In this document: in pieces, positions 5,166 to 34,904 of the stretch
How the letters are laid out: each line of letters opens with the position of its first letter
Numbering within the stretch: the stretch's first letter is position 1
DNA from: Physcia stellaris
Lineage: Eukaryota; Ascomycota; Lecanoromycetes; Caliciales; Physciaceae
Length of the DNA stretch: 64,000 nt
Assembly (NCBI GenBank): GCA_018902385.1
Contig: JABSSW010000008.1
Location: 1-64,000, forward strand
Reading direction: 5' to 3'
Position numbers and translations under genes: made by a program
Notes under the pieces: generated by a model
Database searches by the model: none
What the model was told of the DNA's origin: nothing
Seen by the model: only the letters and a program-made list of their open reading frames with translations

Positions 5166-5174
5166 GATTGAAAT

Positions 5175-7420
5175 AATTCGTGACGTTCACGATTAATTTT
5201 TTTATGCACATTCGAACATGAATCGTATTGAAAAATTCATTAAACGTTATTATTATTGATTTAATATAAAATTATTTATCAAACGTTATATTCGTAATTG
5301 TCACAAATGTTAACGATCAAAATTTTCACATGATGATCGTTATGAATTGTTAATTTTATTGTCGATTTTTAATCAACGATAAATTGATATATCGATGAAT
5401 TTCATAATTGAATTATTTGATTTCAAAAACAATAATGTCATTTGTATTATTATCGATCGTTTAATTAAAAAACGTCATTACGTTTTTTGCGTGATTGATG
5501 ATAATAATTTAACAATTCAAATTTGTGTCAAAATATTGTTTTATTATGTATTTCGTATTCATAAATTATTTTCATTTATTATTTCAAATCGAAATGATCA
5601 ATTCGTAAATCGCGTTTGAAAATTTTTTTGTAAACGATTAAAAATCAAATGTAAATTGTTCATTGTTTTTCAATTTAAAATCGACGATCAAATCGAACAA
5701 ACGAATCAAAATATCGAAATTCGATTGCGTTTGTATTGCAATTATCGTCAAAACGATTGAATTGATTGAATAAATATCATGAAATTCGTTGACAATAACG
5801 ATATTTTAACAATCATCGAATTCATTTCATTTTTTATTAATAAAAATTATTATTTTCGAATGATTTTTGAATCAAATTTAAATAATTACGAAATCATTAA
5901 AAAACGTTTGTTGATTAAACAAAAAAAATTCATTGTTAAAAAAATGAATCGTATTATCGAATACGTCAAAATCAATATTGTTGATACAAAACAAAAAATG
6001 ATTGTTCGAATCAACAAATTTTGTTTTTCGATAAATTTTGAAATAAAAAATTACGTTTGATTGAATCGTTGTTATATAAAAACGATTCGTTCGTCAAATA
6101 AATTGAACGACAAAAAATTGAATTCATACAAAATAATCAAAAAAAAATCTCGTTTATGAATTGAAATTTTTCGATAATATGCATATTCATTCAATTTTTC
6201 ATTTTTGATTATTAAAAAAAAATTTAAAAATTCGTTGAAAAAACAATATAACGATTTTTCAAAATCAATTATTGCAAACGAAATGTTTGAATGAAAATTC
6301 GATAATATATTACAATTTCGATATCATTATTATCGTTTTCAATATCGTTACAAATAATCGAATTGAAATTTTCATAATCGAATTTGATATTATGTCGACG
6401 ATAACGAATTTCAAAATGTTCAAAACATCGTGAATATTTTTCACGAAATTAATTCAAAAACAACGAAATTTGTTTTACGAAATGATTAAATTGTAAATAT
6501 CGTTTATAATCGATCAAAAAACGTTAACATAAATTCGTTACGATTTATTGTCAAATTGATTCAAATAATTTTTGTTTCGATTTTTTGTTTTTATATTATT
6601 TCGCGTTATTTATTGTCAAAATTTACGTCGTATAAAAAATTGAATTGTATCAAAAATATTTTCAAAAATTGTTGTCAAATTTTATTGAACAATAAATAAT
6701 GTAAAAAACGTGTCATACAATGATATAAATAAACAACAAATTGTTAAAAATTTCGAACATTTACAAATTCGTTAACAAAATTTTCAATTGTTTATTAATG
6801 ACATGCGAAATTATTTGTAAAATTCGTTCAAAATGTTTGTTTTTCAAAAAATTTAATATATATACATTTCGTTGAATGCAATGTACGAATCAATTATCGT
6901 ATATGCGATAATATCGACGCGTTAATTTTGATAACGAAAATTTTATCGACATAATTAAATTGTTCGTTTCGTGATATCAATTTGATATTGCAAAAAATTT
7001 CAAAATTGTTAACGCGTTAAATCGAATTCGCAATTGTTTGTTTATTAATGTTCGTTGAAATTATTTTTGACGAAACATATAAATTGATTATTTTTCAAAA
7101 TATTCATTACATTCACGTTTTGTCGTATGCGATGTACACACAAATTTTCGTATACGCGAAAATATCAATGCGTTAAACATTATTACGATGATTTTATTAA
7201 CATGATCAAATTGTTCATTTTATCGTAAATCGATTTGATGTTTTCACGAATTTTGACGAATCGATTTCGCGAACGAAATCGATTTCACAATATTTCGAAT
7301 TTATTTTTTCATTTTATCAATTATTCAATTCAACGTCATTCAACAACGCATTTAAATTGCGCAAAACGTTGATCGAAAAAAAAATTCAATTGATCGTTTC
7401 GAAACGAAATTGAAAAAAAA
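5175..7420 (+). mobile_element. Gypsy-2A: 3' part of a chromodomain Gypsy element (integrase, chromodomain, tail)
   Basis: Plus-strand stretches at 5395-5619 and 5779-6060 resemble the catalytic core and C-terminal part of Ty3/Gypsy integrase, and a chromodomain-like segment follows at about 6290-6480. Nothing upstream of the integrase core is present, because the element is cut at its left by Gypsy-1. The core region resembles the integrase of Gypsy-2B (23.98-24.36 kb), so both appear to be copies of one family. Composition is saturated: in 5341-5640 I counted 27 C, 13 followed by A, 14 by G and none by C or T. The part from about 6.5 to 7.4 kb has no recognisable domain and contains an internal tandem duplication. 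It is broken, with many breaks. Confidence 0.75.
6781..7260. repeat. Degenerate tandem duplication, period about 250 bp
   Basis: Two adjacent stretches align along most of their length, for example the CGTATAYGCG motif at 6898 and again at 7149, each followed by a similar AATATC...GCGTTAA stretch and then an AATTGTTC motif. The copies differ mostly by transitions. They lie downstream of the Gypsy-2A chromodomain, so they may be duplicated 3' non-coding or LTR-type sequence. Confidence 0.6.
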
Positions 7421-7429
7421 CGAAAACTA

Positions 7430-9000
7430 ATGTGACGAACGTATATCGAATTCAATATTTGACAAAATTAACATCGAATTAACATTGTTATTTTATCACA
7501 TCGAATGTTAAAATCGAAATTCGATTTGACGCATTCAAAAAATCAAATTTTTTACATATGTTTTTACAAATTTTTATGTATTTATTTTTCATTTCGATAT
7601 TCTCGTGTAATTATGTAATAATATTATATCATTGCATAGCATTTCACAATCGATTTTACGAAAAATTAATATTTATCATATTCGTTTCGCGTTTGTTTCA
7701 TATCATTGTCATTGATTTCATTTTAATTATGTTTGACGAAATGAATATTGTTATGTTCGCAATCTGTAAACATTCTCGTCGAATTTCATTGATTTTCGAC
7801 AAGAACATTTATGAAACGAAAAAATGAATCAACGCATTATTGAACAAATTATTAATCGTCGATTGAAAAATGTTTGAAATTATAATTTTCGATCGTGATT
7901 CAAAATTCATATCGAATTTTTGACAAATGTTTTTCATCAAATTAAGCACGAAATTGCTAATTACAATGACATATCATTCGCAAACGAATGATTCGTCAAA
8001 ACGAATCAATCAAATTGTTGAAATTGTTATCAGATATTTCGTCATCGAATTTTCGAATATCGATTACATTTTAATTTTTTTTGCAATTCAAACGCAATTA
8101 AACAACACGTTTAACATCGTTACAAATTTATCATTTAATAAAATCATATACGAATTCAAAATCAAAAACGCGATATCGAATTTTATCGAAATTAACACAA
8201 CAAATGTACAGAACTTGTCAACGTAACGCATAAAATATCAACGAAAAATTGTCGATGTTACGAATTTTGCGATTGTCAAAATCAAAATATATTATAATTC
8301 ACGTTATATTTTTATTCGATTAAAACAAAATGAAAAAATTTATTTATAATTTAACAAAAATTACAAATTGTTTGACAAATCAAATTCGAAATTATTTCAA
8401 TAACGTTGCGAATCATTTCGAATTTTTGAACGCATCGAACGTTTCGCGTACAAATTGAAATTGTCATCAACATAACGAATTCATTTCGTTGTGTTTATTG
8501 CACAGTTCGAATCAATTTTTGTCGAAATTGATTTTTACAATCGTTCGCGTTTTCATTATTTTGATTTCATTGAAATCGAAAACGATACGAATCAGTACAA
8601 ATTTTATGAAATTGAAAAACTAATCGAAAAACGAATTAAAAAGTACAACAAAATTCTCGTAATTCAATATCTAGTCAAATGAATCGACTATGAATCGAAA
8701 TATAACGAATAACGATTTATTTCAAAATTGAACAACGTCACGAATTTCATTGAACAATATGAATTCAATCATTCGAATGATTTTGATGATCGCGACGACG
8801 AAAAAAAACGAAAAAATAAATAAATTGATGCATGATATGATTACGCATAATGATAAAACATGAAATTCAATGAAAACATTGATTTTTTTTTTTTTTGATT
8901 GACAAATTGTTATAACGCAAAATCAAATTAAATAATTTGAAATTAAATCGAATATTTTTGCAAAACATTTGACAAGAATTCTGTCATCGTTTCATATTAA
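7430..9000 (+). mobile_element. Gypsy-3: integrase and chromodomain tail of a second Gypsy family
   Basis: Plus-strand stretches at 7558-7827 and 7927-8226 resemble a Gypsy integrase core of a lineage distinct from Gypsy-2, with the region around the catalytic Asp and the following His-Ser-Gln segment recognisable. The stretch at 8491-8682 and just beyond (to about 8766) resembles a chromodomain, as found at the C-terminus of chromovirus integrases. No gag, protease, reverse transcriptase or RNase H is seen, so this is a 5'-truncated remnant. Composition is saturated (C only before A or G, with rare exceptions). It is broken, with many breaks. The right limit is a guess. Confidence 0.75.
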
Positions 9001-9759
9001 ATGAATGATGATCAAACAATTGATTCGCAATTATTGTACATAAATTGACATTTTGTCGTTCATAATTTTTAAATCAATCAATTCAGACTTTACGCATAAC
9101 ATATTACAACAAATTGTTCGCACGAATTTTTTGATATATAAAACGATGATAACATTACGTTTGAATCGTGATTATCGTTTAATATCGTATTCATTGAATA
9201 TACGTTTCGTACAATTCAATGATACAATTAAATTTCGAAATTTGAATCGAAATTCGTTATTGTTGTTCGATGAAATTATTTTGAATTGTTGTTCGATAAC
9301 GATAATTTTCACGAAAAAAAACGAAAATAATATTTTTTTATTAACAAAAATTTATCAAAATTTCATTGATTGATGCAATCGATTGAAAATTCAAAAAATA
9401 TTAAAAAAAAATTGTATTAATTTTTTTAATTTTCAACATTTCATTAACGAAAATATAAAAAAATACAAAATAACGTAAATTTTTTGTTTTGTAAAAACAA
9501 ATTTTATTCGATTTTTTTTGTTTATTATCGCATGTGAAACAAAAAATTTAACAAATATCGAATTAATAACAATTTATTCGATGTTGATAATCGTAAATAA
9601 CAAAAACGAATTCGAAATTTCGAATTATGTTAATATTACAAAAATCGATGTTTCACATATTGTTTTTAATTTTTTGATATTATTTTTCGCAACAATAATC
9701 ATGTCGTTTGACATTTATTGTTTTTTTACAAAAACGATGTGAATGTTATCATTGCATAT
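9001..9759. other. AT-rich stretch with no recognisable content
   Basis: The stretch has the saturated mutated composition. The open stretches at 9053-9373 and 9518-9742 on the plus strand match no family I recognise and are probably chance openings. It could be the 3' tail of Gypsy-3 or flanking DNA of the large inverted repeat. Confidence 0.5.
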
Positions 9760-12700
9760 AATTCAATTTTTGACATAATAATTAATATTATTTAATAAAA
9801 TGCACGTTTTTTTAATGTCGAAACAAAAATTATTATCGACATCAACGTTGTTATCGTTCAATTCAATGACGAAAAATGACAAAAAATGATAAAATTGATA
9901 AAAAAAAACGACACGATTCAAAAATATTTCACGATTTTTTTGTCAAAAAAAATCGAAAAATTCGTTGTTAACGATATAATTATCGACATTATCGTTTTCA
10001 TTTTCGTATTTGATTTTATCGACGATTTTATCATCGACGTCATATTTTTATTTTCGCATTTAATTTTGTCGACGATTTTATTATTAACATTATATTTTCA
10101 TTTTCGCATTTAATTTTGTCGACGATTTTATTATCGACGTCGTATTTTTATTTTCGCATTTGATTTTGTCGACGATTTTATTATCGACATTATATTCAAA
10201 TTAATGAACAACGAATAAAATTTATTGTTTTACATATTATTGTCGACATGATGTCATCATTGTTCAATTATTGATTTCAAAATATTGAACAAAAAAATTT
10301 GTTTTAACACGTAATTTACATTCGCGACGACGTTTTGATCGCGCAATATGTGAATATATTCGTTTTCGAAATTGTTTTTTTCAAAAATTTGTTTTATCAA
10401 TTTTCGAAACATATTTTTAATTACAAAATAAACGTTCAAAATTTTATCATTGAAATAAATTTGATTTGATACAAATGAATTTCATTGTTATTATCGTTAA
10501 AAAACGTTATTATAATGAATTTTTTTCGCATAATCGCATCGAATAAAAATGTCGCAATTATTTATTTATTTCAAATTTTTTGTTTTTTGTCGTTGATATT
10601 GACATTATCAAATTGCGTTTACAAAAAAATGTTATAATTATTATTTTATTCAAATCAAATTCGCGATTCAATGATTTACAATTGTATGTAATTGATTCAA
10701 ATATTTAATGTTTAACAAAAAAAAAAAATTTATTTTTTTTATTATATTTATTTTTTCATAATAATTGTATTTATAATAATAATATTCGAATCGATCGAAA
10801 TGTTAATACGAATTGTGATTTCGAAAAAAAATATAATTCGAATTTGTTTGAACAACGATCGTTTGTTGACGTTATTTTCGAATTTGTTCATGTTTTTTTT
10901 TTTCAAATCGTTGATACGAATTTCAATCGTTCACAAATTGTCGACGATTTTAATTTTTTTTATAACATTGACGATTTGAATTCGATAAAAAAATATCGAA
11001 ACACAATTTTTTTTTCGTCGTTATTGACATTTAATTCATGAATGATATTGAAAAAAACAAAATCGTTTGATATTTGTATCGATCAATCAAAATTTGTATT
11101 CGAATTCGCAATTCGATCGATTTCGACGAAACGTTTACACAAAAATTAAAAAAAAATGATTGAAACAAAAATCATTAACGACGAATCAATCATTTCGAAT
11201 TGACATTGAATATCGTTTAATAATCAACAAATTCGAAAATTAATATAAACGTTGATAATTGATATGTTTATAAATTTCATGTCAAATTTCGAATAAATTT
11301 TGTTGAATAATATCAAAAAATTTTACAATCAAAAATTCAAAAATAAAAAACATTATAATAAATAAAAAAAAATTCACAATTCGAAAATTGAAAATAAAAA
11401 ATATTAAAAAATATGTGAATTGAATTTGTAAATGAAATTTGTAATTTGATTGATATTTTTTAAAAATCAAAACATTTGAAATATGTAATCGTTTTTATAA
11501 CAAAATAACAAATTCGCGAATTATCACGATGCGTCAAAACACGTTAATGATATAAATATTTCAAAAAACAACAAATCGTTTTTAACGTTAAACGATACGA
11601 ACGTTAAACGAAATAAATTCAATCGCATAAAACACGTTAACGATCAAAATATTTTTTTTTATTTCAACACGATTTAACAATCGAATTAAAAATTGAAACA
11701 ATTTAATTGAAATTAATTCAATCGAACGCGATTAATCGCGTTTAATCGATTTCATTTAATTTTTTTTGACGAATGCATAAATATCGTTGCATTTCATTTT
11801 CATATTCGTCGATTTTTATTTAATCGTTATACGAATATATCAACATTTCGAATTCGAAAAAAAATTTATTGCATTGTTACACAACGTGCAATTCAATAAT
11901 TAAATTCGACATTATTCGCAAATTCATATATCAATTGTTTGTTTAATTGATTATTTGACGTATTCGTGCAAATGCGAATTACATGTCAAAAATATCGATT
12001 ATAATAATTATTTTCAATGTTTTTCGTGAAAAAATTTGAAAAAAATTGAACGTGAATTATTGAACAAATGATCGTATTCGCATTAATTTAAAAATAAACG
12101 AAAAAACGTACAAAATAATATACGTTTTTTTGAAAAAAAAAAAAAAATTGATTAAAAATGAAAAAATTGAATGACAAATTTAATTATGTTAATATCAAAA
12201 AAAATTGCAATCGATTTTTATTCAAAAAAAAAATATTTTACAATATTCGAAAACGTTGATTTCGCATAAAAAAAAAACATGTTTGTTTTATTGAATTCAA
12301 AAAAAATCAAAACAATTCAAAAAAAAAAACGATACAAATTTAATATCATTAAAAATTTCATGCAATAATAATTTTATTATAAAATTTTATCAATTCAATG
12401 TCGTTTTCGATGCAATTTTTATTTTTTTCGAAAAAAAAATTTGTTATAACGAAATGTGTCGATCAAAAAACATAATTTTTTCAATTTTTTTTTGTAAATA
12501 ATCACGATAAAACATTTGAAATTTAATAAATTTGTATAAATATTGAAAAAAAATATAAAAATGAATTTCGAATTGAAATTTATACATTGCGAATTATATG
12601 AATTAAAAAATATCAAAAATCAACGATGCAATTTTTTTCGTTTTTAAAAAATCGCGATTTTCGAAATGTATTTTTATGAATTTTATTATTTGCAATTTTT

Positions 12701-13246
12701 ATTAAATCAAATCAAAATAAATTATCAATACAAATCAATAAAAATCGAAAAAAAAAACATTTTTTGATTTAACGATTTGTATTAAAAATTAATGTAACGA
12801 ATTATAAAAACGATCGAATTTTACAATTTTTTAAAAAATCGACATTTTAATCAATTCGATTAAAATATCGATTGCATTAACATTAATATTTGAATAATAC
12901 AAATTCGCAACAACAACAAATTTTTTATTTGTTCAATTTTTTTCGTTTTTAATTCATTTTTCAATTCATTTTTTATTTTTTGTTTTTAATTCGTTTTTCA
13001 TTTTTTTTATTCGTTTTCAAAAATTTATTTTCGTCAACAATTCATTTTTCATTTTCAGTTTATTTTTCGTATTTAAATCATTTTTCAAATTATTTTTTTG
13101 TTTTTTTTTTCATTGTTCATTTTTTTTTCACGATTTGTTTCGTTTTTTTCGATTTATAAAAATCGAAAACGAAAATTGAAATAAAAAATATATTCAAATA
13201 AAATAAAAAAAATTGACAAAAATTGAAAATATAATTGAAAACAAAT
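9760..13246. repeat. Left arm (about 3.5 kb) of a very large inverted repeat
   Basis: The reverse complement of this interval matches 17185-20713 along its length. Anchors I checked are 9844-9861 with 20612-20629, the translated stretch at 10257-10439 (-) with 19993-20193 (+), 11282-11470 (-) with 18939-19124 (+), about 12541-12650 with 17752-17865, about 13021-13090 with 17341-17410, and the inner end 13237-13246 with 17185-17194. The sum of paired coordinates stays near 30,431 and drifts by about 40 through the minisatellite. The arms differ mainly by transitions at CA/TG. No protein domain is recognised in the arm. It may be one copy of an unknown transposon or a long terminal inverted repeat. 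Confidence 0.88.
9975..10195. repeat. Minisatellite, 50-bp unit, about 4.5 copies (left arm)
   Basis: The unit core GACGATTTTA starts at 10021, 10071, 10121 and 10171, exactly 50 bp apart, with a partial copy before it. Each unit carries a GTCGAC or similar site followed by TTTTATTATCGAC and TTTTCGCATT. The corresponding array in the right arm has units of about 57 bp, so the two arrays have changed length independently. Confidence 0.9.
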
Positions 13247-16200
13247 CGTCGAAAAAAATGTTCGATTGATTTTGACGTTTGAAATTTGTTTCGAATCGTT
13301 TAATCAAATAGTCAAAAAAATTGTATTTTTCAAATTGTTTCAAATCAACAACGTTTCGTCAAAAACAAATTTCAAAAATTGAAATTTGTTTTAAATCGTT
13401 CATTGTTGATTCAAAATTTATTTTTGAAATATTGAATTGTTTCAAAATGTTTCAAAACGCATCAAATAAATTCATTTTTTTTCGCATAATTTTTGATTGA
13501 TTTTTTTTTTGTTTTTTGTTGATTGTTGTTCGTTCAATTTGATCAAAAACAATCATGTTTTCAAAAATTATTTGTTTTTTGATGAATTCATTTTTTTTTT
13601 TTGTTTTGAATATTCAAATCGTTTTTTTTTTTTTTTAATATCAATCAAAATCATTGACAATTTGTTTCGTTTTTGTCGTATCAAATATTTTTTATTTTTT
13701 TTGATTTCGCGTTTGTTTTGAAATTTTTGTTTTAAAATGATCATTAACGTCATTTTTATCATTGAATTTATCGATTCGTGTTAAATTACAATTAAATTTT
13801 GATTGATTGTTTTTATCAAACACGAAATGCAAAATTTGTATTCAATATATATTAAAAAAATAATCACATTTTTTGCATCGTTATTGATTTTTCGAAACGT
13901 TTTTTATAATTCATTTGCAATTTTTTTTTTTTCATTGAATTGTAATTTTCATTCGTTTTGATAAATCAAAATTTTCGATGCAAAATATATTCAAATATTT
14001 TTTCGTTTTGTACATTCATTTTTTTACATCATGTTTGTCAATTCAAATCGTAAAAAACGTTCATTTTTGATCGTTTTGTTGTTCAATAAAATGATAAATT
14101 TCATTTTTTTTTTCGACGATTCGATTTCAAAATTTGCGTTTTTTATATTTTGTTATTTATAATTGAACAATAAACACATTGACATCGCATATGTGAATTC
14201 GATTTATCAATTTTTCGACACGTTTTTCAATTGTTTCGTTTTCGTATTGAATTCGTTTTTTTTATTTTTTGTTTTTTTGTTTTCAATGAATCGACATTCG
14301 AATTTTCGACAATTGATATCACGCGATCATTGTTTGTAAAAAATTTGAAAACAAAACGAAAATTCGAAATCGTGTCAATTTTTTTTTTTCAAAAAATATG
14401 ATATGATATTGTTATAATTGACATTAATTTTTCGATTAACGAATTCATCGATCATATTCGAATTATTGATATCAATTTGAAAATTGTTTGATATAAAAAC
14501 GCGTGAAACAGTTTTTTTGTTGTTTCGCAAAATTTTGATCGTTTCGATGAAATAATCACATTTCAATGAAATGATTTTTGAAATTTCATTATTTTTTGCG
14601 TTGATTGTGATTCGATTTTTGATTTTGTTTTGAAAATATTTGCAAATTTCGTTTTGAACACGAAAATTCAAATTTTTTCAAATTAACATGTAAAATTCGT
14701 AATTGTTTGTTGCATGTTAATAATGTAAAAAATCGAAATAACACGTAACATATTTTTCATCGTTAAATTTTCGAATATCATGTTTGTTTTTTTATTATTC
14801 GCGAAATATTTTTTAATCGTATGATGTATGATTGTAATTACAAAAAATATCATAACAAAACGAAATTTATTGAATATGTTTTTGATGTACATTTGAAAAT
14901 CGAAATCTTTTTTAAAATTTTTGAAAAATATGTCGTAAATCGCGATATTTATAATATCGACGATAAATGAAATAAATTACACAACATTTGTTAATTTTTA
15001 TTGTAATAATTGACACGCATTTATTTATTTTCGATTCAAAATTTTCGTAATTAAAACGAATGAAAACATAATTGTGTAACAATTTCGCAATCAATTGATG
15101 AAAATTGACAATGATTTCGAATTTATAATACGAAATCATTATGTTTTTAATTTTGTAAATTGCATTAAATCGAAAAATGTCGATTAAATCGTACATTTGT
15201 GTTGACGTTAATGTATTTGCATATTTTTTATGTAAATAATTTTACGATTCGCGTTTCGAAATTTTGCGATACATTCATGATTTTCGAATATCGTTTTATG
15301 TTGCGTTCAAACATTCGTTTGCATTTTTTTTACATTTTCAAAATAAAATCGTTGATCGCATCGAAATTATATTTTGTTCAAACGTTTAATTTGATTTTGA
15401 TATATTCATTGAATATTAATGTTTGAAAATTAAAAAAAATTCGTTTTATCAAATATGCATATTCATCATTAATTTTTTTTTTGTTTTTTCGTCGTTTAAT
15501 GATTTTTCAATATTATCGTGTTATTGATATTTTTTTCGAACATTTATGTAACAAAAAATTTTGTCGAAAAAAATGTCGATTTATATCACGTCGATATTTT
15601 CGATTGTTCGTTTTTGATAAAAAAATGAAATCGTTTGATTTGTTTCGATTTGATGTCGATTGTTTTTTCACAATTAATATAAAAATGTTGAAAATATCGA
15701 TTGATATCGAAATTTTAAATTGTAAATGATTCAATACGTTGTTGAATTATTCATGAATAATTTGATTTACAACAATTGTCAAACGTCGTTTTGATGTGAT
15801 ATTCATGTTTTTTTTTTCGAATTTTTATTGTTGTTGTCGTTTTTTGTATCGATTTCGTCGTTCGATATATTTTTGAAATTATTCGAAATAATTTTGCGTT
15901 TTTTGAATGATTTTTGTACGTTTTTTTTTGCGATTGTATTTAAATGTATTTTGTTATGTGCGTGCAAATAATCAATTTGTTTTTAAATTAACAATATCAT
16001 TTGATTGAACAATTTAATTCATGATCAATTAATTGCAACATTGATTGTCGCAAAAAAAACAATTTCGAATATCGATTGTGAATGTTGTACGTAAAATTTC
16101 GTATTGTCAATTTTCGCGTTTTTGATTCGATTTAATTTATTTGAAATTATTGAATTAATCAATCGAATCAATCGTGAATCGAAAACATTATATTGAATTT

Positions 16201-17184
16201 TAATATAAAAATATAAAAATTGAAAAACAAATGTGTTACAATCAACGCGACATCAAATAAATATCAAAAAAAAAACAATGCAATTTAACGCGAAACGTTT
16301 TTAATTGTGATTGACGAAATTGATTGAACAAAATTTTTGTCGTCGATTAAAACAACGATTGTTTGTTTTGATCGTCAAATTATTTTGTTGTTTAACGTGT
16401 TTCGCGAAAATTTAAATTTATTTAATTTTTAACGTGTTTTATCAAATATACGAACGTGTCGTTTATTTTTCGTTTGATTGTTTGTATTTTGCAAAATTGT
16501 GCGATTGAAATCAAATAAATTGTTAAAACAATTTCAAATGTATTAAATTATTATTTATATCAAACATGATTTTTTTTGCGATCGAAATGTTCGATTATAA
16601 CGATCAACATCGAAAAAAAAAATAAAAACATCGTTTTTCGTTATATTGATATTCATTTTTTTAACATAATTTTTTTTTTCAAATTTCGAATTCAAAAATT
16701 TCAATGAACGATAAATGAAACGACGTCAATAATATTTATCGCAATCGTTGTTTTTTATGATTTGTATTTTGCGATATTTTTCGAAATATTCAAAATTAAA
16801 AACACAATTGCGAAAATTGACAAATCGTCACAAACATTTGATCGCGACAATTCAAAATTTTCGCAACACGATTGTTTTTGATGTTAAATTGAAATTCGAA
16901 ATATAACAAAATATTCGAAATAAAATCAAATCAATTAACGTCGTATTTCGATCGCATTTGAATCGATTTGAACATTTGTAAATTGTTTTCGATCGTGTTC
17001 AATGATTTCAACAACAATTGAATGATATCAAAAATAAATATCGACAATGTTTGAATACGATTTATGAATCGTGCGATCGCGAAAATTTTCAACATTCGAA
17101 TACGATTTTCGAAATTTTCACAATTGACGTAATTGCAAAAAATTATATATTGTTTGACATCGAATCAAATTTGCATTAAATTCA
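13247..17184. other. Loop (3.94 kb) between the inverted-repeat arms
   Basis: This is unique sequence with the same saturated composition, bounded by the inner ends of the arms. Several modest minus-strand open stretches (14375-14671, 14683-14892, 14912-15196) lie head to tail. This could be a decayed coding region of the element that carries the repeats, but I recognise no domain. Long T and A runs are common (for example around 13500-13720). There is no sign of host genes. Confidence 0.5.
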
Positions 17185-17317
17185 ATTTGTTTTCAATCAC
17201 ATTTTCAATTTTTGTCAATTTTTTTGATTTTATTTGAATATATTTTTTGTTGCAATTTTCGTTTTCGATTTTTATGAATCGAAAAAAACGAAACAAATCG
17301 TGAAAAAAAAATGAACA

Positions 17318-17510
17318 ATGAAAAAAAAAACAAAAAAAAAATTGAAAAATGATTTGAATACGAAAAATGAATTGAAAATGAAAAATGAATTGTTGACGAA
17401 AAATAAATTGAAAACGAATAATAAAAAAAATGAAAAACGAATTAAAAAAAAAAATGAAAAAAAAATGAAAAATGAATTGAAAACGAAAAAAATTGAACAA
17501 ATGAAAAATC
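17318..17510 (+). repeat. A-rich degenerate short tandem repeat (about 18-bp unit)
   Basis: Imperfect units resembling GAAAAATGAATTGAAAAC follow one another. The plus-strand translation is almost only Lys, Asn, Glu, Leu and Thr. The mirror copy lies at about 12920-13110 in the left arm. It may be the mutated remnant of a low-complexity acidic or polar coding repeat. Confidence 0.65.
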
Positions 17511-20229: not shown

Positions 20230-20445
20230 ATTTTGACAAAAAAATGAACGTCGATAATAAAATCGTCGACAAAATCAAATGCGAAAATGAAAATGTAACG
20301 ACGTCGATAATCAAAAAAATCGTCGACAAAATCAAATGCGAAAAAATGAAAATGTGACGTCGACAAAATAATAATTTCGTCGATAAAATCAAATCAAAAA
20401 AATCGAAAATAAAAAAATAACGTCGATAATAAAATTCGACAAAAT
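20230..20445. repeat. Minisatellite, about 57-bp unit, about 4 copies (right arm)
   Basis: The unit start CGTCGA recurs at 20264, 20321 and 20378 (57 bp apart), with a further diverged copy about 56 bp on. It is the mirror of the 50-bp array at 9975-10195, with an extra A-rich segment in each unit. Confidence 0.85.
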
Positions 20446-20713
20446 CAAAACGAAATTTGAAATCATTTTTCGATTTTCGACAATTAATCGTTAACAACGA
20501 ATTTTTCGAATTTTTAAAAATTAAAATTATTCGCAAAAAAATCGTGAAATATTTTGAATCGTTCGTTTTTTAAAAAATTTGAAATTTTCATGTCATTTTT
20601 CGTCAAACAAATTGAACGATAACAACGTTAATTCATCAATAATTTTTGTTTCGACGTGAAAAAAACATTCAACAAATTAAATGATTTGAATTTCATTCAA
20701 AAATTGAAAATTC

Positions 20714-23700: not shown

Positions 23701-24365
23701 CAAAAAAAAACGATATTTTATATTACAAAAATTGATTGTGAATGTTTGTTGATGTTTTTTTATTCGTTGATTTTTTCAAAAAAATTTATGAACTTTCAAC
23801 GTCAAATCATTTTGAATTTAATCGCATGAAAAATTTTTTACGTCGCGATTATCATCGATTCAATATGCGCAAAATCGTTCGTCGATACGTACGTAATTAT
23901 CACGATTGTCAACGAATCAAAATTTTTAAAAATCGCAAAAACGATTTATTTATTTTTTTGATTATATTTTTGCAACGTTGAATCGATATATCGATGAATT
24001 TTATTACGAAAATGTTTGACGTTCACGATCGTAACGTCATTTGCACGATAATCGACAAATTTAACAAAAAACGTCATTATACATTTTGCGAAAAAAAACG
24101 AAAACACGAATATTGAAATTATAACGAAAATATTAAATTTTTCAATTTACGTTTTTCGTATTTACGATTTATTTTTTTTATAACATTTGATCGAAATTTT
24201 TTCGTGTATTCATGTTGACAAGTTTTTGCAAAATGTTTTCAAATGTAAATTTTCACGATTTTTCATTTAAAAATTGATAATTTTTTCGAAAAATCAACAA
24301 AACATCGAAAAACAATTGCGACAATATTCAATTTGCAAAACGATTGAAACGTTTAATAAATTTTT
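20714..24365 (+). mobile_element. Gypsy-2B: degraded Gypsy pol (reverse transcriptase, RNase H, integrase N-half)
   Basis: Plus-strand domains appear in Ty3/Gypsy order: the reverse transcriptase N-part (about 22214-22430), a palm-like segment (about 22650-22760), the linker and RNase H (22929-23264 and beyond), the integrase His2-Cys2 zinc-binding segment (23742-23981, with a clear CQRIK-type segment), and the start of the integrase catalytic core (about 23985-24360). Sequence from 20.7 to 22.2 kb would hold gag and protease, but I cannot recognise them. The element ends abruptly inside the integrase where the less mutated stretch begins. The core matches Gypsy-2A, so these are probably two copies of one family. 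Composition is saturated. It is broken, with many breaks. Confidence 0.78.
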
Positions 24366-25630
24366 CTATAATAAAATATTTTGTAAATTCGTTTCGCGCG
24401 AATGATCGAAAAATCGAAAAGAATTGAATAAAATAAAATTCAGAATTCGTTGCTTAAAATCGATGTTTGATCAATATTTAATTCACGTTCTCAAATAGAA
24501 AAATCGATTTAATCTTTTTTCGATATCATCAAATTTTTGTATATTTCGTGTTGAGTTATTTGAAAATTTTTAATCGAACATGACAATTGCGTTTTTTCTT
24601 ATTTTTGTTTTTCAAAATTATAGAATTAAATATTGCGAACAAAAAAAATTCGAAAAAAATCGTTAATCGATTTTATATTGATGATGTTATCGTGTTTCGA
24701 ACGTGAATTTATTTTAATTGCATTTTGTCAAATTCGTCATCATAACAAATTCATTTTTCATTTTCATATCGCGTTTTCATTTTTTTTACATCATTTTCAT
24801 TTATTTGTATTGTTTTGTTTTTGTTTTCAAACATGTTTTCATTTGATCAGTTTGCGTTTGCTGTCAACGAACAGCAAAATCGACACACATTGTACGCAAT
24901 CAATCAAGTTCGTCGTTAACAATTCGCGATGTGAATGAATTTTTATGAAATTATCATTTTGTTTTTTTATTTTGCAGATTCAGCGAAAACAACGTTTAAG
25001 CGATTTTTTAACGATGTTATCGATATTGCTAACAACGTGCTTTCTAAAAAACGCGAAAGAAAAACAGAATATCGAAAAAACGTTTTTTAAATAATTTGAT
25101 CGCTCAGAGTTTTCTACAATTTTATTTTTTCGAATTTGTTGTTGTACGTTTTCGTCAAGAAATACGACGTTTTGAACGATTAACAAGTCAAAATTTTTTG
25201 TTTTTCAATTTCTATTTCAAGAAAACGATAATGACGACGATTTCGATTTATCTTTTGTTTTTTTCGAATATTGATTTTTCGATCACGATTTCGATTTCGA
25301 ATCTGATAACGAAACGAAAAATTTCGTTTTTTGACGACAAGCGAAGAAGCGATCAGTTGTCACGAAATAACAATATACGATCAATCAACAAAAGAATCAG
25401 ATCAAATGATCAGATTCGAATTCGAATCACGTTCGAAAATCAGAATCGAAAAATACGCGTGACAAATTTAAGTTTTGAATTTTGATTATTTCAGTGTTCG
25501 AAAATTGATACAAATATAATTTCGCACGTGTTTGAAAATTACGAATCGATGAAAACGTTTGTTTATTTTTGCAAAATTTATCGATATTTCGAAAAACGCG
25601 ATAAAAATTTCAACAAACAATATTGACATT
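24366..25630 (+). mobile_element. Unclassified, less mutated remnant, possibly gag-like
   Basis: From about 24,366 CpT and ApG reappear, as in Gypsy-1, and the stretch ends at the left LTR of Gypsy-4. Around 24,980-25,470 on the plus strand there is coding-like sequence with a basic segment followed by a long Asp/Ser-rich and Arg/Asn-rich segment. This composition is seen in some retroelement gag proteins, but I see no diagnostic motif. Its level of mutation suggests an age similar to Gypsy-1. It may be an insertion in Gypsy-2B that was later cut by Gypsy-4. It is broken. Confidence 0.4.
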
Positions 25631-25950
25631 TGTAAGATTCGTATTAGAAATAGTATAATCTAATGAATTATTGACATCAAAAATGTATAACTTGAAATAT
25701 AATATATTGATTTATTAATCGTTACAGAACAAATTACGTTTTGCAATTGTTTTTTATTTACATTTTATTTGTTCAATCGTACGAATTCGATCGATTTCGA
25801 CTGAAAATATGAACTTGTTGAATTTATCGTTGATCGAATTGTAAAATGATTGAAATTGATTTTTTTCGAAATCATTCGAATTTCGATAATCGAATTGCTT
25901 GACGAAATGCGAATCGCATTTTCGAAAATTTTGAATTTTTATTTTTTACA
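25631..25950 (-). repeat. Gypsy-4 left LTR (3' LTR of the minus-strand element)
   Basis: It is 320 bp, begins TGTAA and ends TTACA, and is a direct repeat of 31906-32225 over its full length. About 18 differences were counted by eye, with only one transversion. Most of the transitions (12 of 17) are in CT/AG context, 5 in CA/TG and none in CG. Confidence 0.93.
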
Positions 25951-25966
25951 TACGTTTTTTTTTTAA
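25951..25966 (-). other. Polypurine-tract-like site of Gypsy-4
   Basis: Directly inside the left LTR the minus strand carries a run of about ten A preceded by ATGTTA. This matches the expected position of a plus-strand priming polypurine tract next to the 3' LTR and agrees with the minus orientation of the coding remnants. Part of the original G content has probably been lost to mutation. Confidence 0.5.
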
Positions 25967-28900
25967 CATCGAAATTTTTGAAATCAACATGTTAACAGAA
26001 ATTTTGACGTATTTTGTTTGTTTTGATTTTGCATTGATTTGAAAAATCATTATGATCGTGATTTTCGCATTTCGAAATATTTTTGTTCGAATTCGATAAT
26101 CAATTTGCGTTAAAAATTTGAAAAAACATTTTTTTGAATAATTCAAAAAAAACATAATTTGATGAATCAATTGTTTGTTATTTTCATGATCGAATGTTTG
26201 ATTTCGTACAATTCACAATTTTCGATATGATAATTGACAATTGATTTGTTGACAAAAAATTTTGAATTCGAACATTTTTTTATTTTTTTATTTTTTTATT
26301 TCGAATATCAACATCGATATTATGAAAAAATGTGTAAACGCGATAAACGTTCATTAATCGCGATCGCATTGATATTCAAATTTCGAAATTTTTTTTTTAT
26401 TTCATTTCACATTTTTATTCAACGATTTATCGTTCGATCAAATCGAACAACAATTTTTGAAAATGTTTTTGACACGATTCATTTTTTATGCGTCGTAAAT
26501 TTTAAACAATAAATAACATACAAAAATTTTTGAAAACGAAAATGTGTTAACATGCAATAAATATTTCAACATTTTTTTCGTGATTTTCGATAATTTGTTT
26601 TTTTTTATTAATCAAATTTTTTTGAATTTTCGTTGTAAAATTGTCGCAAAATTTTTCGAAAATGTTTGACAAACGATGTAAATTTTCAAATCGCGTTTTT
26701 ATAATTTTTTCATTTTATCAAATAGTAAAAATCGAATTCGTTGTAAAATTTGTTTGAAATTTCATTTGTTTTGAAAATTTTGTTGTTTTTAATGATTTCG
26801 ATTTTTAAAATTTTTTCGTGATTTTTCGTTTTCATGTTTTCGTCGAATTCAATATTTTCAATTTGATACGAAAATTCAAAAAAAATGTGACGTATGTTTT
26901 TTTTTTTTAAATTGAATTTTTCGAAAAAAAAAACGTGAAAAACGTCGTGAATGCGTCAACGTTTGAATAAATTTAAACGATAAATTTGATTTTTTATATT
27001 TTTAAAATTTGAAATGATTCAAAAATTTCATTTCAGTTTTTTGTTTCGTTTAATTTTGATGTTTTTATCGTTCAAATTAACGTAATTTTCGACGTTATAT
27101 GACATTGATTTTGTACGTTCGTTTTGTACATCGTTTGTTGTTGTTGTGTTACGAATAAATTGTTTTTCAATATTCGAAATAATTCAACTAAATATTCAAC
27201 GTGTTTTTGCGAATTTGAATTTAATTTTTTTTTGTTTCATATTTTTTCGAAAAACATGCGAAACGAATATTCAAACATGATTTCGAACGAAAAATGTTTA
27301 TGAATGCGTGTTTGTTGTTGTTGTAAACGAATTCGATCATAAATAACAATTTCATTCAATCATTTTGTTCGAAATTGACGAAAATGCGAAAAAATTGTTT
27401 CATGACGTTGTTTATTCGTTCGATTTGTTTATCGATTTGAAAATGAAAAACGATTAACAATTTACGTTTGATTTTCAAAACATAACACAACGCATCGTTG
27501 TATTTAAATGTGAAAATGAAATTTTTGTCGATAACGATTGACGAAAAAAAATCGTAAAATCGAATGATTTCGCGAAATAAAATTTCGATCAAATTTTTTG
27601 CGAAAATTGTTTTAATCATTGATATATAATGAATAATTTTCGTTAAACAATTCACAATCATTAAAATCGAATCGTAAATCGTTTCATTTCACGTTTTATT
27701 TGAAAAAAATTTTGTTATAAAATTCATGAAAAAATCAATTCATTTAAATTCAAAAATCGAAAAAAAAAATTCGTCGTATGATTTGTGTCGTGCAATTTTG
27801 TTTCGTTTGCAAACGACGCATGTTTCACAATATTTTTGATTTGTTGTCGCATTTCAAAAATTTCGATAAAATTTTGATTCGATCAATAATATTTTCGACG
27901 TATCAATTTTCAACGTTCGTTCGATGTCGAAATAATTAACGAACGAATTATCGTGATTGACACGAATAACGTTTTCACGCAAATTTTTTGAAATGTAAAC
28001 GACGTCGTCGTAATACAAAAATTCATTTTTTGTGTTGTCAATGATTTGTTTTGTTTTCGAAATAATTAATTTTCGACATATTTCAAAAACGAATTGATTT
28101 TTATCGATCAAATTTCACGAACGAAATTCAACAATGAAAATGTTGATTCGTCGTTATATGTCGTTTTTTTCGTAAAACAATTTGTATTCGAATTTTGTGC
28201 ATTGCGCATTTAAATACAATCGTTGATTTTAACACAAAAATTTTTCATTTTATGAATGTCACGTTTGATTTTTGTTCAATCGAATGTTTTGAATTTTTCG
28301 AATTTTTTGAATCGAATATTTTCGAAACAACGTTGATTGAAATTCGATTTCGTTTTAAATTTTTTGAATCAAATGTTTTTGAAACAACGTTGATTAATTC
28401 GATTTTTAAATCATTTAAATGCGATCGACGTTTTATGTTATGTATCGCATTCATGAATCGTTTCATGACATATATCGCATTTATGATTTTGATCGCATTT
28501 ATTCGCATTTTTTCGAAACATTTCAAATTTGCGATCAATAATTTTTGCAATTGTTTCAAAATTTGACGATTGTTTTCGACGTTTTTTCAATAATTATTAT
28601 GTGATTAAATCGTTTTGAAAATTGATTAATAAAATTTTTGTTACCGAAACGATAATCGATTAAAAAATTATATCGATTCAATTTTTGAATTTATCGAATT
28701 TGACGTGACGACAATTTAATTGTGATCATAAATTGTTTCAAATTGCGATAATCAATAAAAACAAAAATTTGTTTTTTTGCGTTTTCGAAATAATGTTTTC
28801 ATTGTTTGAACGAAATCACAATAATCAACAATTTTTTGTCATGAATTTCGTAATAACATTCGATCGAAATCAATTTGCGCGAAAAATACGCAACAAAATG

Positions 28901-31900
28901 TCAATGATTTTCGTCGTTTTGTTGACATAAAATGATTTCGAAATTTTGTCGAATACGTCGATTTCGATTCGAATAACACGTTCGAAATCGAAATGACGTA
29001 AAATTGATATTTCGATAAATGTTTTGCGAAATCGTTTGAAAATTTTCAACGTTTCATTGATCAAAAAAATGTGAATATTCGATAATTTGTTGCGATTTCG
29101 ATTTTGATTTCGTTTGCGTTTACGAATATTTTTTCGAAATTTTTGCGATTTTTTTAACATAACGATCAAAAATTCAACAATTTTATTGAAATGTTTAATG
29201 AATCGTCGATAAAAATTAACGATATCGAAAAATTGCATGATGTCGAAAACGTTGCGAAATACAAATCATTGTTGAATAATTTCGATTTTTTTGTTTTGCA
29301 TTCGTATTTTTTGAAAAAAAAAACGACGAATTCAAAAAAAATTTATTTCGTCAACGAATCATTTGCATTTTTCAAAAACAATATATAATTTATTTTTTTA
29401 AAACGATCAAAAATTCATTTGATATCGTCGACATGAATTTCGACGTTTATCGAATAAATTATTATATCATTCAAATATATAATGACGTTAATATCGAAAC
29501 GAATCGTTAAAATTTTATTGATAAAATTTTGAAACGTCGTCGAAACGTTAATGAAATCGAAAAAAAATACGTTATATTCGAAATGATCATATCGAATACG
29601 AAAAATTGTTTTTTATTCGTTTTCATGTTTGATACGCAATCGATGATAAACAACAATCAAATCGATGTTGATATATTTGACGATTTTGTTGAATTTATTT
29701 AAATTTTCATCGATTAACGATAAAAAATATTTATTTTTATCGTGAAAACATTAAAATTTTTGTAATTCACACATAAACGTAAATTATCGTTTTTTTTGAC
29801 GAACAAAATGAACGTTTTTGCAAAAAATTGTGAAAATCGAATGAAATCGTTAATTAAATGTTTTTCGATGTAAACACGTAATATTCGAAATTCATTTTCA
29901 AATAAAAAATAAATTGATTCATGCGACGATTTTTTGTTTTTTTTAAATCAATAACATGATCGTTTGAATCATGATTCGATAATTCGTAAATTTTATTTTC
30001 GTTATCGAATTTTTCATACGTTTTCAAAATATCGAAAAACGTGATTTTAATATCGAATTTTTTTTCATTTCAATCAAAACAAATTTTATTTGAATTCGTT
30101 TTAAAACGTGCATTTCATGCATGTCGAATTGTTTGTCAATATACATTCGTACGAACATAAAATACGTTTCGATTTCGTTATCGATGACGTTTATAATCAA
30201 TTGTTTTGATTCGATGTTTTCGATACGATTCGTGATAAAAATGAAAATTTTTTTTGCAACGTCAAATTTTGATATTGTCGTCGTTTCAATTCATTTTGAT
30301 TTTCGAAAATTGTATTCAAAACATGTTTAACGTTAAATTTCAATTCAAATTCACGATCAAAAACGATTTTTCGAAAAAACGATTGATTTTTTTGACGTTT
30401 GACATTTCGAATTGTACGAAATAAACGTCATATGTTTTCAAACGATAATTGTCAATTGTTATTGCATCACAATTTAAAATTTCAAAACGACGAAAATCGA
30501 ATTTTTTCGCATAAACATGATTTATCAAATTAATTTTCGTTTTTGTATCGAATATTGTTTTCGATTCGTTTCAAATTTGATTTTTGTTTTGTATATTAAT
30601 TTTGATTTTGACGCATTTACGAATCACAAATTTTTTAAATTTTTTGCGTCGTTTTTTTTTGTTAACATGATTTTTGTTCATGTTTGAAAAAAACGACGTA
30701 TCGAAATCGAAATTCGAAAATTTTTTTTTTTAACGATTTGAACGAAAATCATCAAATCGATTAATTTTTTGATTGTTCAAAAATTTGATCAACGAAAATG
30801 ATTTTGTTTTTTTGTTTGTGCAAATTTCGATTTGATGATTTGATTTGTCACAATTTATACAATTATTTTTGTTTTGAATTTTTTTGAATTCGTTAACGAA
30901 TCAACGATACATTCGAATATTTTTCGATTTGATTGATTCGTGATTCGAATTGATTTTGTTAATATTTTTATTTTTTTATTTTTGAATTTCGCAATTTTGA
31001 ATTTTTCGTTTTCGTTTTCAAAATTGTCAATATCGAACGAAATTTTACGTTTTTTGAAATTTTTGAATTTTTTTTCAAAATTTGAACGTTTTTTATACGT
31101 TTGAATCGTTCAAACAATTTCGTTTTTGTGAAAATTTTTTTTTTTTAAAAAGTATGCAGCGAAATTTCAAACGTAATTCGTCACGAAAATCGTTGAGTTT
31201 TATTGTTTTCGTGAATTTGAATTCGAATTTCAATTCAGCAAACATATTTATTCGTTCGACATTGTAATTTTTAATCGATTGATTGTGATTTTGTTTGTGT
31301 TTGCGATATTTTTCAAAAAAATTCTGTTGCAACGTGATTGTTCGTTCGATATCGTTTTTCAAAAAATTTTGAATTCGTTTCAAATGTATTGTTTGTTTGA
31401 ATGAAAATCGATTTTTGCGTTTCAAAATTTGTTCGCATTGTTATTTGATTTAAAATAAATATCAACATATGCGATTTTGATTAAATTCGAAAATTAAATT
31501 ATGTGATTCACGTTGTTTTGCGTGAATTGATTTTTCATTTGTTTGCAATATTTTTTCACTTTTGTAATTTTTTTTTTTCATATTGATTCGATGTCGTTTC
31601 GATAATTTTCATGACGAAAATTTTCAAACAAAATCAAAAACAAAAATAAATAAAATAAAAACAAATGAAATAAAAATTACAAATTTCGAACGTTCAGTAT
31701 TTCGAATTTGCAATTTGATTTTTTTTTATAATTTTTTTCGATTTGTTGTTTGTAATAAATCAATCAAAAAAATACGTCAATATTTTCGACAAATTCAAAA
31801 AGCAAATCATTATCAGAGTTCGACATGATATATGCGAAACAACAAAATTGTATTTTGTTAAATATACACGAATGACATCATTCTGAAATATGATAGCGAT

Positions 31901-31905
31901 TAGAA

Positions 31906-32225
31906 TGTAAAATTCGTATTAGAAATAATATAATTTAATGAATTATTGACATCAGAAATGTATAATTTGAAATGTAATATATTGATTTATTAATCGTTAC
32001 AAAACAAATTACGTTTTGCAATTGTTTTTTATTCACATTTTATTTATTTAATCGTACGAATTCGATCGATTTCGACTGACAATATGAATTTGTTGAATTT
32101 ATCGTTGATCGAGTTGTAAAATAATTGAAATTGATTTTTCTCGAAATCATTCGAATTTCGATAATCGAATTGCTTGACGAAATGCGAATCGCATTTTCGA
32201 AAATTCTGAATTCTTATTTCTTACA
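31906..32225 (-). repeat. Gypsy-4 right LTR (5' LTR of the minus-strand element)
   Basis: It is 320 bp, TGTAA...TTACA, and is the partner of 25631-25950. It keeps CT at several positions where the left copy has TT, and the reverse also occurs. So each copy was mutated separately after insertion. Confidence 0.93.
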
Positions 32226-34904
32226 GATTACAACGATTTTTCAAATTTCAAAACAAAATATATTTACACAAATTCAAAAATTTCGATGTCGAAAAATATT
32301 GATCATTTCAAGAAATTTCGATGTTAAAAAAAAACGCATATAAAACATTCAAAATTCAAATCAATAAAACATTACGAATCGAATTTCGATAAAATTATAC
32401 AAACAATTCGATTATCGAAACGAATAAATTATGAAAACGATTAATTTGATCACGTCAACATCAAATTTTCGATTGAATTCAACAAATTCATATTTTCGAA
32501 TATGTTTCGAAATGTGTATACGATTGAACAAATTGATTAAATATATAATTGAAAATGTACAAATTAATTAATTTTGCAATTATTAGTTTAATCATACAAT
32601 CGTTTCTGTTATACATTTTTGATGTCACATTTTTTGAATTTTACATGCGTAACATTTATCGCGAAAAATTCGAACAATATGATTTTTTTCAGTCAAATTC
32701 GTATGAAATTTTTGTTTTTTTCGTGTAACACGTTTAATTGAATTCGTTTTCATTGTTTTGTGATTTGATGTTCGATAAATTTTGTTTATAATATATGATT
32801 CGCATTTATCGTGCTGTGAATCGATTTTTTCGAATTTGAAACATTCGAAATCATCGATAAAATTCATTGTTACAAATTTTTTGACATCGCGTAAATTGAA
32901 ATATTCAAATCGACGATGTCGTTGATTTTCAAAAAATAAAAATTTTCGCAAATCGTGTTTTAGTGACAAATTTTCACATATCGAAAATATATGAATTATT
33001 TTTTTGACGTATATCGATTATGAAAATTTTATCGTCGTTTTCATCAATGATTTTGAAACGATTTTTTTTGACAACGATTTCGCATAATTTTTTTTCGAAA
33101 ATATCAATAAATATGAAATTGTATTCGAAATCAAAAACGTATTCAACGTCGATAATGATGTTACAAATTCGTTTGTCGTCGATATTAAATTCGAAAATGA
33201 TAAATTCGATTTTTTTGATTGTTGCGAAATTTTTCAATTCGTGAAACAATTTTTTGTTGTAACACAAATAATTGTTCGTTTCGTTGTCAAAAAAAAATTC
33301 GAATTTTTGAATAAAATTGTCGATTTTGCGATACGTGTTGCACAATTAATTTGAAAAATGAAATTATTGAATCGAATACGTTTGATTTTGTTCATTGCAA
33401 AATGACGAAATGATGTAATTGAAAACGTATTATTTTCGAAATCTGAAAAAATTGAATTTTCGATTGAAAAATTTGATTTAAAAATCGAAACAATTGAATC
33501 AAATTTGATTCGTTTGATTTTATCGATTTTTTTTTATTTTGTCAATTTTGTTGATTGATACGAAATTGATTTTGTTTAATCAATTTACGATCAAATGTAT
33601 TTTGATTTCGTAAAATTTTCAATCAAAAATACGTTGAAATTTGTTATGATAAAAATAATGTAATTTGTCATAAATAAAAAATTTACATATTTCGCATAAA
33701 TCAATATCACGATTTTTTTTGTTTTTATTTTTATTTTTATTTTTATCGTTTTTCGAAAATTTGTTTCGATTGTTTTTGATTGTTCGAATTGAATTTCGAT
33801 TTTTTTTCATATAAATATTTCGTTTATTTTGATCGATTAACGTTTTGATCATTTAAATCGATAATCGATATTTTTTTCACGTAATTTGATTTCGTGAATA
33901 AAATGAAACATATACGAATTCAAATTTCTAATTAAATTTATACGAAAACGATTGTTCATAAATCAAACAAAAAAATTTCGTCGATCGCATTAATTTTATT
34001 TTTTATTTTTCAAATGTTTTGTTCAATCGTCAACGTTTTTGAAATCGACAAACGATTTGTTGCAAATTTTTTTTTTACAACGAAATCGATAATAATCAAA
34101 TCGATCGTTTCGTAAAAATTTTTGAATTTCAAAAAAATTTTCGTGTCGTTTTCATATTTTTGACGTGTGAACGAAATTTCTGTTTAAACGAAATATGCGT
34201 TGTTGTACAAATTTTGTTATGAACAATAATTTATTTTTTGTGATTTTTTTGTATTGTTTGTGTTTTGCGTCGTAAATAATTTGTTCAATTTTGATCATAA
34301 CACGTTCGATGTCGTTTTTTTTGCGTAAATTTGATTTCGCAAATGAAAATAATTTTTTTATTTCAAAAATGTAAAATCAAAATTGAGAAAATACGAAACA
34401 GAATTTTAATTTTTCGATTCACAAAATGAAATTGTCGATTTTTTCAATTTCGTAATTTTGTATATTTCAAAAAAAAATTTTATGATGTTATAGAAAGATT
34501 TCTGAATGAATTGAGAAATTAAAAAATGTTTTGTTGTTGAATTTGTGTGATTGCGTTGTTGAAATTTTTCGATTGCATTTTATTAAAACAATATATATAA
34601 AATCGATGATTTATTCAATAAATCGTGATTTTCAAATTATTAAAAACGAAAACACGATTCGAATTTATAATTTGTTAAAAAATTAAAACACATCGATTCA
34701 AACATTGAATTGATTGATTAATTAACAAATATTTAAATAAAAACATTGAATATTAATACATGCGACATATGCGATATATGCGATATGCGTTATTGATAAT
34801 TGAATTCTGAACAAGTGATTGGATTCTGAACGATCTGATCATCTGAATCCTGAATATCACGTGACTAGAATTCTGAAAGGTTCTGAATATTGCACATTCC
34901 AACA
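32226..34904 (-). mobile_element. Copia-type LTR retrotransposon fragment (gag end, protease, GAG-pre-integrase)
   Basis: Minus-strand stretches show Ty1/Copia order from high to low coordinates: a zinc-knuckle-like Cys-Cys-His segment (33852-33619), a protease-like stretch (33345-32974), and a GAG-pre-integrase and integrase N-terminal stretch with recognisable Cys and His positions (32969-32625). No reverse transcriptase is found before Gypsy-4 interrupts at 32225, so the fragment is truncated. The right edge is set at 34904, where the minus strand would start TGTTGGAA, a common Copia LTR beginning. Most of it has saturated composition, but the last 100 bases or so do not. It is broken, with many breaks. 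Confidence 0.75.
34560..34904 (-). repeat. Putative 5' LTR of the Copia fragment (inner end uncertain)
   Basis: The outer end reads TGTTGGAATGTGC on the minus strand and falls exactly at the transition to normal host composition. TTCTGAA occurs four times within 34805-34887, the sort of short repeats found in LTR U3 regions. The second LTR is absent, so the inner boundary cannot be placed. Confidence 0.4.

Follow-up and report, generated by a model that had tools for sequence, protein, structure and literature searches.

What kind of process removes nearly every cytosine that stands before another pyrimidine from a block of fungal DNA and leaves those before A or G in place? The question is raised by the first 64,000 nucleotides of contig JABSSW010000008.1 of Physcia stellaris (Ascomycota, Lecanoromycetes; GenBank assembly GCA_018902385.1), a stretch that we call the window, in which a transition loss of C on both strands is limited to positions 1-34800. 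This affected part contains pairs of repeats and a retroelement, and the flank to its right is clean. We consider it very probable that the block is repeat and transposon DNA that has undergone a repeat-directed C-to-T hypermutation similar to repeat-induced point mutation (RIP), with a preference for a pyrimidine 3' of the C and contexts hit in the order CpC > CpT >> CpA > CpG. The order is taken from stretches saturated to different degrees; for CpT, CpA, and CpG, repeat copies were also compared. Since the pattern works like RIP but lacks the canonical preference for CpA, it is a RIP-like variant and not canonical RIP.

The block is AT rich, with a GC content per kilobase of 0.17-0.27 across 5166-34800, and its edges are sharp, lying at 5165, where the retroelement starts, and near 34,800. 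Its saturated part at 5166-24300 (no strand assigned; GC content 0.22) holds no CC and no GG against 474 expected, and 37 CT/AG against 1656, expectations being computed throughout from the base composition of each range; in 200 composition-preserving shuffles of this range, the lowest CT+AG count was 1582. CA/TG is above expectation (2171 observed versus 1655 expected), CG is far above it (1025 versus 237; observed/expected, 4.33), and TA is low (observed/expected, 0.47). The two strands are evenly affected (CT 17 and AG 20; CA 1108 and TG 1063). The right part of the block, 25951-34800 (no strand assigned), is likewise mostly saturated, with CC 1, GG 0, CT 15, and AG 22 in 25900-34400. The longest stretch free of CC and GG starts at 5138 and measures 23.5 kb, and the longest free of CC, CT, GG, and AG measures 7.0 kb. 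In the flank, counts over 34401-64000, a range that still includes the final 400 bases of the block, gave 1.01 of expectation for CC, 1.03 for CT, and 0.84 for CG. Although its GC content is only 22%, 5166-24300 keeps about the absolute CpG density of the flank, with 1025 CpG in 19.1 kb (54 per kb) versus 1548 in the 29.6 kb of 34401-64000 (52 per kb). A slight CpC deficit just beyond the edge, at 34801-35400 (38 CC/GG versus 52.8 expected), is only suggestive of CpC loss leaking weakly into the flank.

A preliminary description of this DNA had counted 27 C in 5341-5640, of which 13 stood before A, 14 before G, and none before C or T, and our recount was identical. The full counts of all 16 dinucleotides agree with its CpC/CpT void across 5.2-24.3 and 25.9-34.4 kb, with its view of CpA and TpG as the survivors, both being above expectation in 5166-24300, and with loss on both strands. 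The limits that it gave to the block did not hold: the end lies near 34,800 rather than 34,400, the interval at 24.3-25.9 kb is also affected, and 1-5165 belongs to the affected DNA at a milder stage. CpA/TpG are not as depleted as CpT/ApG, and the same skew was looked for in the unmutated flank of the window, where the dinucleotides are normal. The description had further expected the usual RIP indices to be blind to the block. When the block was cut into 57 one-kb windows, none qualified as RIP positive by the stringent published RIPper thresholds (PMC7882544), and none reached either threshold of a looser set (PMC2621366). TpA/ApT is 0.43-0.48 and the substrate index, (CpA+TpG)/(ApC+GpT), is 1.22-1.45 in three affected parts; neither the CpA preference nor the rise in TpA of canonical RIP is found in the block.

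The order of loss can be read from DNA at different stages. A Ty3/gypsy-type long terminal repeat (LTR) retroelement on the minus strand at 1-5165, truncated at the window edge, is at an early stage: CpC is nearly gone (16 CC/GG versus 296 expected), and about one-third of CpT has been lost (402 CT/AG versus 577 expected). An intermediate-stage segment at 24300-25900 (no strand assigned) has no CC/GG and keeps part of its CpT (CT 19 and AG 32, that is, 0.24 and 0.42 of expectation); in the remainder, both are nearly gone. The portion at 24300-25630, which has lost CpC but partly kept CpT beside saturated DNA, may be a younger insert. Of the 34 one-kb windows in 1-34000, 33 retain no larger share of their expected CpC than of their expected CpT, the exception being 28001-29000, where one CC/GG is left and no CT/AG. 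The earlier statement that CpC and CpT are lost first can thus be sharpened to CpC, then CpT, weakly CpA, and CpG nearly untouched.

A simple model reproduces these compositions. C-to-T change was simulated from the flank at 35-64 kb (35001-64000), with a rate set solely by the 3' base (four rates), and fitted to 1-5165, 5166-24300, 25951-31905, and 32628-34800; 24301-25950 and 31906-32627 were left out. The strand-symmetrized frequencies of the 16 dinucleotides were matched within about 1 percentage point in each of the four blocks, with a misfit of 0.00007-0.00089 versus 0.059-0.128 for context-free and CpA-first models. The fitted rates were CC 3.17, CT 0.63, CA 0, and CG 0 in 1-5165 and CT 4.20, CA 0.23, and CG 0.005 in 5166-24300; CpC rates in the saturated blocks (5.9, 18.4, and 49.3) are not identifiable. 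CpC is therefore lost about 5 times as fast as CpT and CpT about 18 times as fast as CpA, with CpG hardly moving. Trinucleotides show which base is changed: in 1-5165, TCA (38.5 versus 19.5 per 1000 in the flank) and TCG (29.6 versus 16.2) are raised and CTA (7.5 versus 10.5) and CTG (12.2 versus 17.0) lowered, which identifies the first C of CC as the changed base. CTA and CTG remaining in 1-5165 are nevertheless above the simulated 5.7 and 9.2 per 1000, and CTT/CTC are below their simulated values, a hint that a second 3' base also influences loss there, although composition confounds the comparison too strongly for a claim.

Differences between repeat copies bear on the same order. Besides smaller pairs, the block contains a 320-bp repeat and an inverted repeat of about 3.5 kb; six pairs were analyzed, counting positions where one copy or both had C and the 3' neighbor was shared. 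The most similar pair, the two plus-strand copies at 25631-25950 and 31906-32225 of the 320-bp repeat, which has LTR-like ends (TG...CA), is 94.4% identical, and 17 of its 18 differences are C/T or G/A. Copies differ at 12 of 15 CpT sites (6 per copy), 5 of 34 CpA sites, and 0 of 36 CpG sites (Fisher tests: CpA versus CpT, P = 2e-5; CpG versus CpA, P = 0.02). The preliminary description had named far more frequent mutation of CT/CC than of CA sites between repeat copies genome-wide as a finding that would support it, and for CpT against CpA this is what the most similar pair in the window shows; together with the free-rate fit, these differences support the preference for a pyrimidine 3' of the C that it had proposed. 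The two copies were also considered as the LTRs of a single element, but no matching target-site duplication was found, and they are better described as two dispersed copies. At 32225/32226, the second copy meets, head to head, an inverted and diverged duplicate (32226-32627) of a portion of the repeat plus its right flank.

In the inverted repeat, whose arms lie at 9762-13246 (arm 1, plus) and 17185-20708 (arm 2, minus) and are 88.6% identical by BLAST, CpC and CpT are exhausted, the single CpT site differs, and the contrast is between CpA, which differs at 120 of 392 sites, and CpG, at 23 of 343 (P = 3e-17). C/T or G/A changes make up 182 of its 285 differences, and arm 1 carries T or A at 140 of these 182, which makes it the more mutated arm if all changes were C to T. 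The four remaining pairs are noisy, being 64-82% identical in alignment; in one, 13 of 30 CpA and 3 of 23 CpG sites differ along with 5 of 5 CpT sites, and in another, 17 of 36 CpA and 11 of 45 CpG sites differ. Each arm of the inverted repeat also contains a tandem array, a minisatellite of 50-bp units repeated 4.5 times at 9971-10196 in arm 1 and an array with a 57-bp period at 20254-20410 in arm 2.

Several observations weigh against repeat-directed mutation in the order proposed. All of the evidence comes from one window, and for most of the block, no second copy was found within it, so that repeat targeting is supported for parts of it. A CpC change is never directly visible between copies because CpC is saturated, and its first rank is taken from composition; the model, moreover, starts from flank DNA, the original composition of the elements being assumed. 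Two of the four diverged pairs do not have CpA above CpG (4 of 12 versus 3 of 7, and 9 of 18 versus 12 of 20). In the inverted repeat, 103 of 285 differences are other than C/T or G/A, which indicates that the repeat is old and has earlier divergence mixed in. Same-strand runs of changes are a trait of Neurospora RIP, but events in the inverted repeat did not cluster by strand (94 adjacent same-strand event pairs versus 90.1 when shuffled; P = 0.31), nor did they cluster by copy (P = 0.20); old, saturated copies could hide same-strand runs.

We weighed five other explanations for the block. Canonical CpA-first RIP of the Neurospora or Leptosphaeria type, seen late after saturation, would account for C-to-T change on both strands in an AT-rich, repeat-holding block with sharp edges. 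It would also leave CpA/TpG depleted and TpA raised, whereas in the block CpA/TpG exceed expectation and TpA reaches 0.47 of it; the constrained CpA-first model misfits by 0.059-0.128 versus 0.00007-0.00089 for the free one, and in 1-5165, where mutation is least advanced, CpC has been lost and the fit gives no loss of CpA. The dinucleotide counts refute it in this window, and we give it next to no credence. Decay of methylated CpG or a general AT-biased drift agrees with the low GC content of the block, but CpG is the best-kept context, at a density matching that of 34401-64000, its fitted rate is near 0, and the context-free model misfits. With CG at 4.33 times expectation and no depletion of CpG, this explanation is refuted in the window as well and seems to us scarcely conceivable. 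An enzyme or damage that reads the 5' base (an APOBEC-like deaminase, or UV at dipyrimidines) gains some appeal from CC and CT both being dipyrimidines. TpC, however, would be its target and is raised rather than lost (86.1 per 1000 in 1-5165 versus 72.3 in the flank; observed/expected, 1.41 in 5175-24300), and a rule based on a 5' C predicts a rise in CTA and CTG, both of which fall in 1-5165. In the absence of the TpC depletion it needs, we rejected this candidate as very improbable. Voids this clean could also raise the suspicion of a sequencing or assembly artifact, such as chemically converted DNA, which we rejected as next to impossible given equally affected strands (CT 17, AG 20), a normal flank, DNA at successive stages of loss, and repeat copies that each carry changes of their own, in both directions.

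The fifth explanation, which we find unlikely but less so than the others, is that a general deaminating step acted on repeats and that 5-methylcytosine (5mC) protected CpG and CpA, so that CpC and CpT were lost. In Zymoseptoria strains with Dim2, cytosine methylation in transposable elements reaches about 43-61% in CG, 10-22% in CA, and 3-8% in CC and almost never occurs in CT (PMC8016269); the methylated contexts CG and CA are the group kept here, and the little-methylated CC and CT are the group lost. CC is nevertheless methylated more than CT in Zymoseptoria, yet it is lost first here; the methylation figures come from a different species, and the mutation of Zymoseptoria itself falls on CA (PMC8016269). 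Hypermutation with a 3'-pyrimidine preference of its own is the reading that we carry forward.

How does such a process compare with those already described? It is like the RIP of Neurospora crassa and other Pezizomycotina, which involves RID and DIM-2, in changing C:G to T:A on both strands, in AT-rich blocks that hold repeats, and in sparing nearby genes, and unlike it in that CpC and CpT are hit, CpA is largely spared, and TpA is low. Across 1,239 fungal genomes, Badet and Croll (PMC12543289) conclude that RIP-like defenses have a CpA preference in common; CpA is also the signature reported for Phialocephala (PMC5148876) and, together with CpC-to-TpT double changes, for Monilinia (PMC8959702). 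In the CpT-biased cases (Botrytis, Sclerotinia, Magnaporthe, Colletotrichum truncatum, and Anisogramma, and Tad1 and rDNA in N. crassa), as here, CpT to TpT is a main class, but there, the loss of CpT is accompanied by loss of CpA, and the portions consulted do not name CpC among the leading targets. Amselem et al. (PMC4352252) distinguish CpA, CpT, and CpG signatures, note that CpT species also show CpA, and link the CpA and CpT signatures with genes of the RID/Masc1 class; both CpT and CpA are reported for C. truncatum (PMC6180176) and Anisogramma (PMC10998396), CpT change for Tad1 of N. crassa and for S. nodorum (RIPCAL, PMC2621366), a rise in CpT change alongside CpA for N. crassa rDNA (PMC5555474), and a dominance of CpT to TpT in alignments of RIP-capable control genomes (PMC7882544). 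The CpT families of C. truncatum have TpA/ApT of 1.61-1.67 and substrate indices of 0.08-0.12 (PMC6180176), versus the 0.43-0.48 and 1.22-1.45 found here. CpG-biased RIP-like mutation (Microbotryum, Rhizoctonia [PMC4014442], and Tuber) is similar in being a context-dependent C-to-T change, in transposons in the case of Microbotryum and Tuber, and differs in that CpG is the best-preserved context here. Methylation induced premeiotically (MIP) in Ascobolus also acts on repeats through a RID-class protein, Masc1; MIP methylates without mutating, whereas bases are changed here. The excerpted parts of PMC11969663, PMC7296669, and PMC11315935 yielded nothing on CpC or CpT, and we found no published description, in the portions of the literature consulted, of CpC as the leading target with CpA spared; this coverage did not extend to the genome paper on Ramichloridium luteum (PMC5602860), where CpC is named 3 times, and priority is unsettled. 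CpT bias beside CpA is already published.

Duplication itself would be the trigger of mutation, which would take place before meiosis, and the agent would be either a deaminase or a DNMT1-family protein, of the RID/Masc1 or possibly the DIM-2 class. The most likely candidate mutator would be a DNMT1 relative of the RID class whose choice of base has changed. A role for a DIM-2-class protein is possible; a 2026 review ascribes a CpT preference to DIM-2 (PMC13297926), whereas Dim2 of Zymoseptoria methylates CG and CA and hardly touches CT (PMC8016269).

The retroelement shows what such changes do to coding sequence. The element, on the minus strand, has its 5' end (TGTTAG...) at 5165, and it was recognized by RVT_1 (Pfam, E = 2.5e-8) at 440-856 and by matches in the PDB to reverse transcriptase/RNase H chains and Ty3 chains. 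Five stretches were scanned against Pfam, and 440-856 alone passed the cutoff; 2345-3094 gave a subthreshold C2H2 finger (E = 0.36), and 44-436, 3683-4456, and 1589-2152 had no match. A tblastn search with its six open stretches (112-258 codons) found no further copy of the element in the window, and two of the six, used as queries against viral_contigs, gave 6 and 11 pattern matches, none of which was confirmed. Among the 1078 residues of the six open stretches, Gly makes up 0.0%, Trp 0.0%, and Pro 0.1%, versus 6.9%, 1.0%, and 6.5% in four open reading frames (ORFs) of the flank. A CpC change on the two strands alters Pro (CCN) and Gly (GGN) codons, turns TGG into TGA, and leaves untouched the codons that classical RIP converts into stops (CAA, CAG, and CGA). 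Between 3095 and the left edge of the window, minus frame 1 has 13 stops, of which 12 are TGA (all 12 as far as position 41, followed by a TAA at 35), whereas the two remaining minus frames have 131 TGA among their 201 stops across 1-5165; this is a weak test (P of about 0.03 for 12 of 13 and 0.006 for 12 of 12), as the range was picked after the stops had been seen and where the long open stretches lie, and in the whole of minus frame 1, TGA accounts for 29 of 42 stops, the same as in the other frames.

A broader picture, whose chances we put as evenly balanced, is that of a fungal lineage with a repeat mutator inverse to classical RIP. It would hit CpC more than CpT, leave in place a scaffold of CpG and most CpA that can be methylated, and inactivate repeats chiefly through the loss of Gly, Pro, and Trp codons instead of through stops derived from Gln; a retargeted RID-class enzyme or a 5mC-shielded deaminase would carry it out. 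If this is true, genomes with a 3'-pyrimidine system would be scored as RIP negative by TpA/CpA indices. Index-based surveys of RIP rest on CpA loss and TpA gain, and the present block scores 0 of 57; if the pattern is genome-wide, the presence and absence of RIP across fungi need a recount with all four CpN contexts. A genome-wide pattern would also make enzymes of opposite 3'-base choice available for finding what sets the specificity of RIP, which is, to our knowledge, an open question.

The unaffected, gene-bearing flank at 34900-64000 (no strand assigned; GC content about 0.50) has Pfam matches to a kelch/coiled-coil protein, the coiled coil being read from the sequence and not from Pfam, to a HAD-like protein, to PA-domain and RING-finger stretches that are probably one gene, and to a protein kinase. 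Together with the type of the retroelement, these genes point to a filamentous ascomycete as the host. The HAD-like ORF had no match in the PDB, and no tRNAs or Rfam families were found in the window. A loose scan without a chance control picked up 19 intron-like patterns in the flank. An open stretch on the minus strand at 54689-55585, without a Pfam match, contains a 48-bp tandem repeat at 54830-54991, with 3.4 copies and 87% matches.

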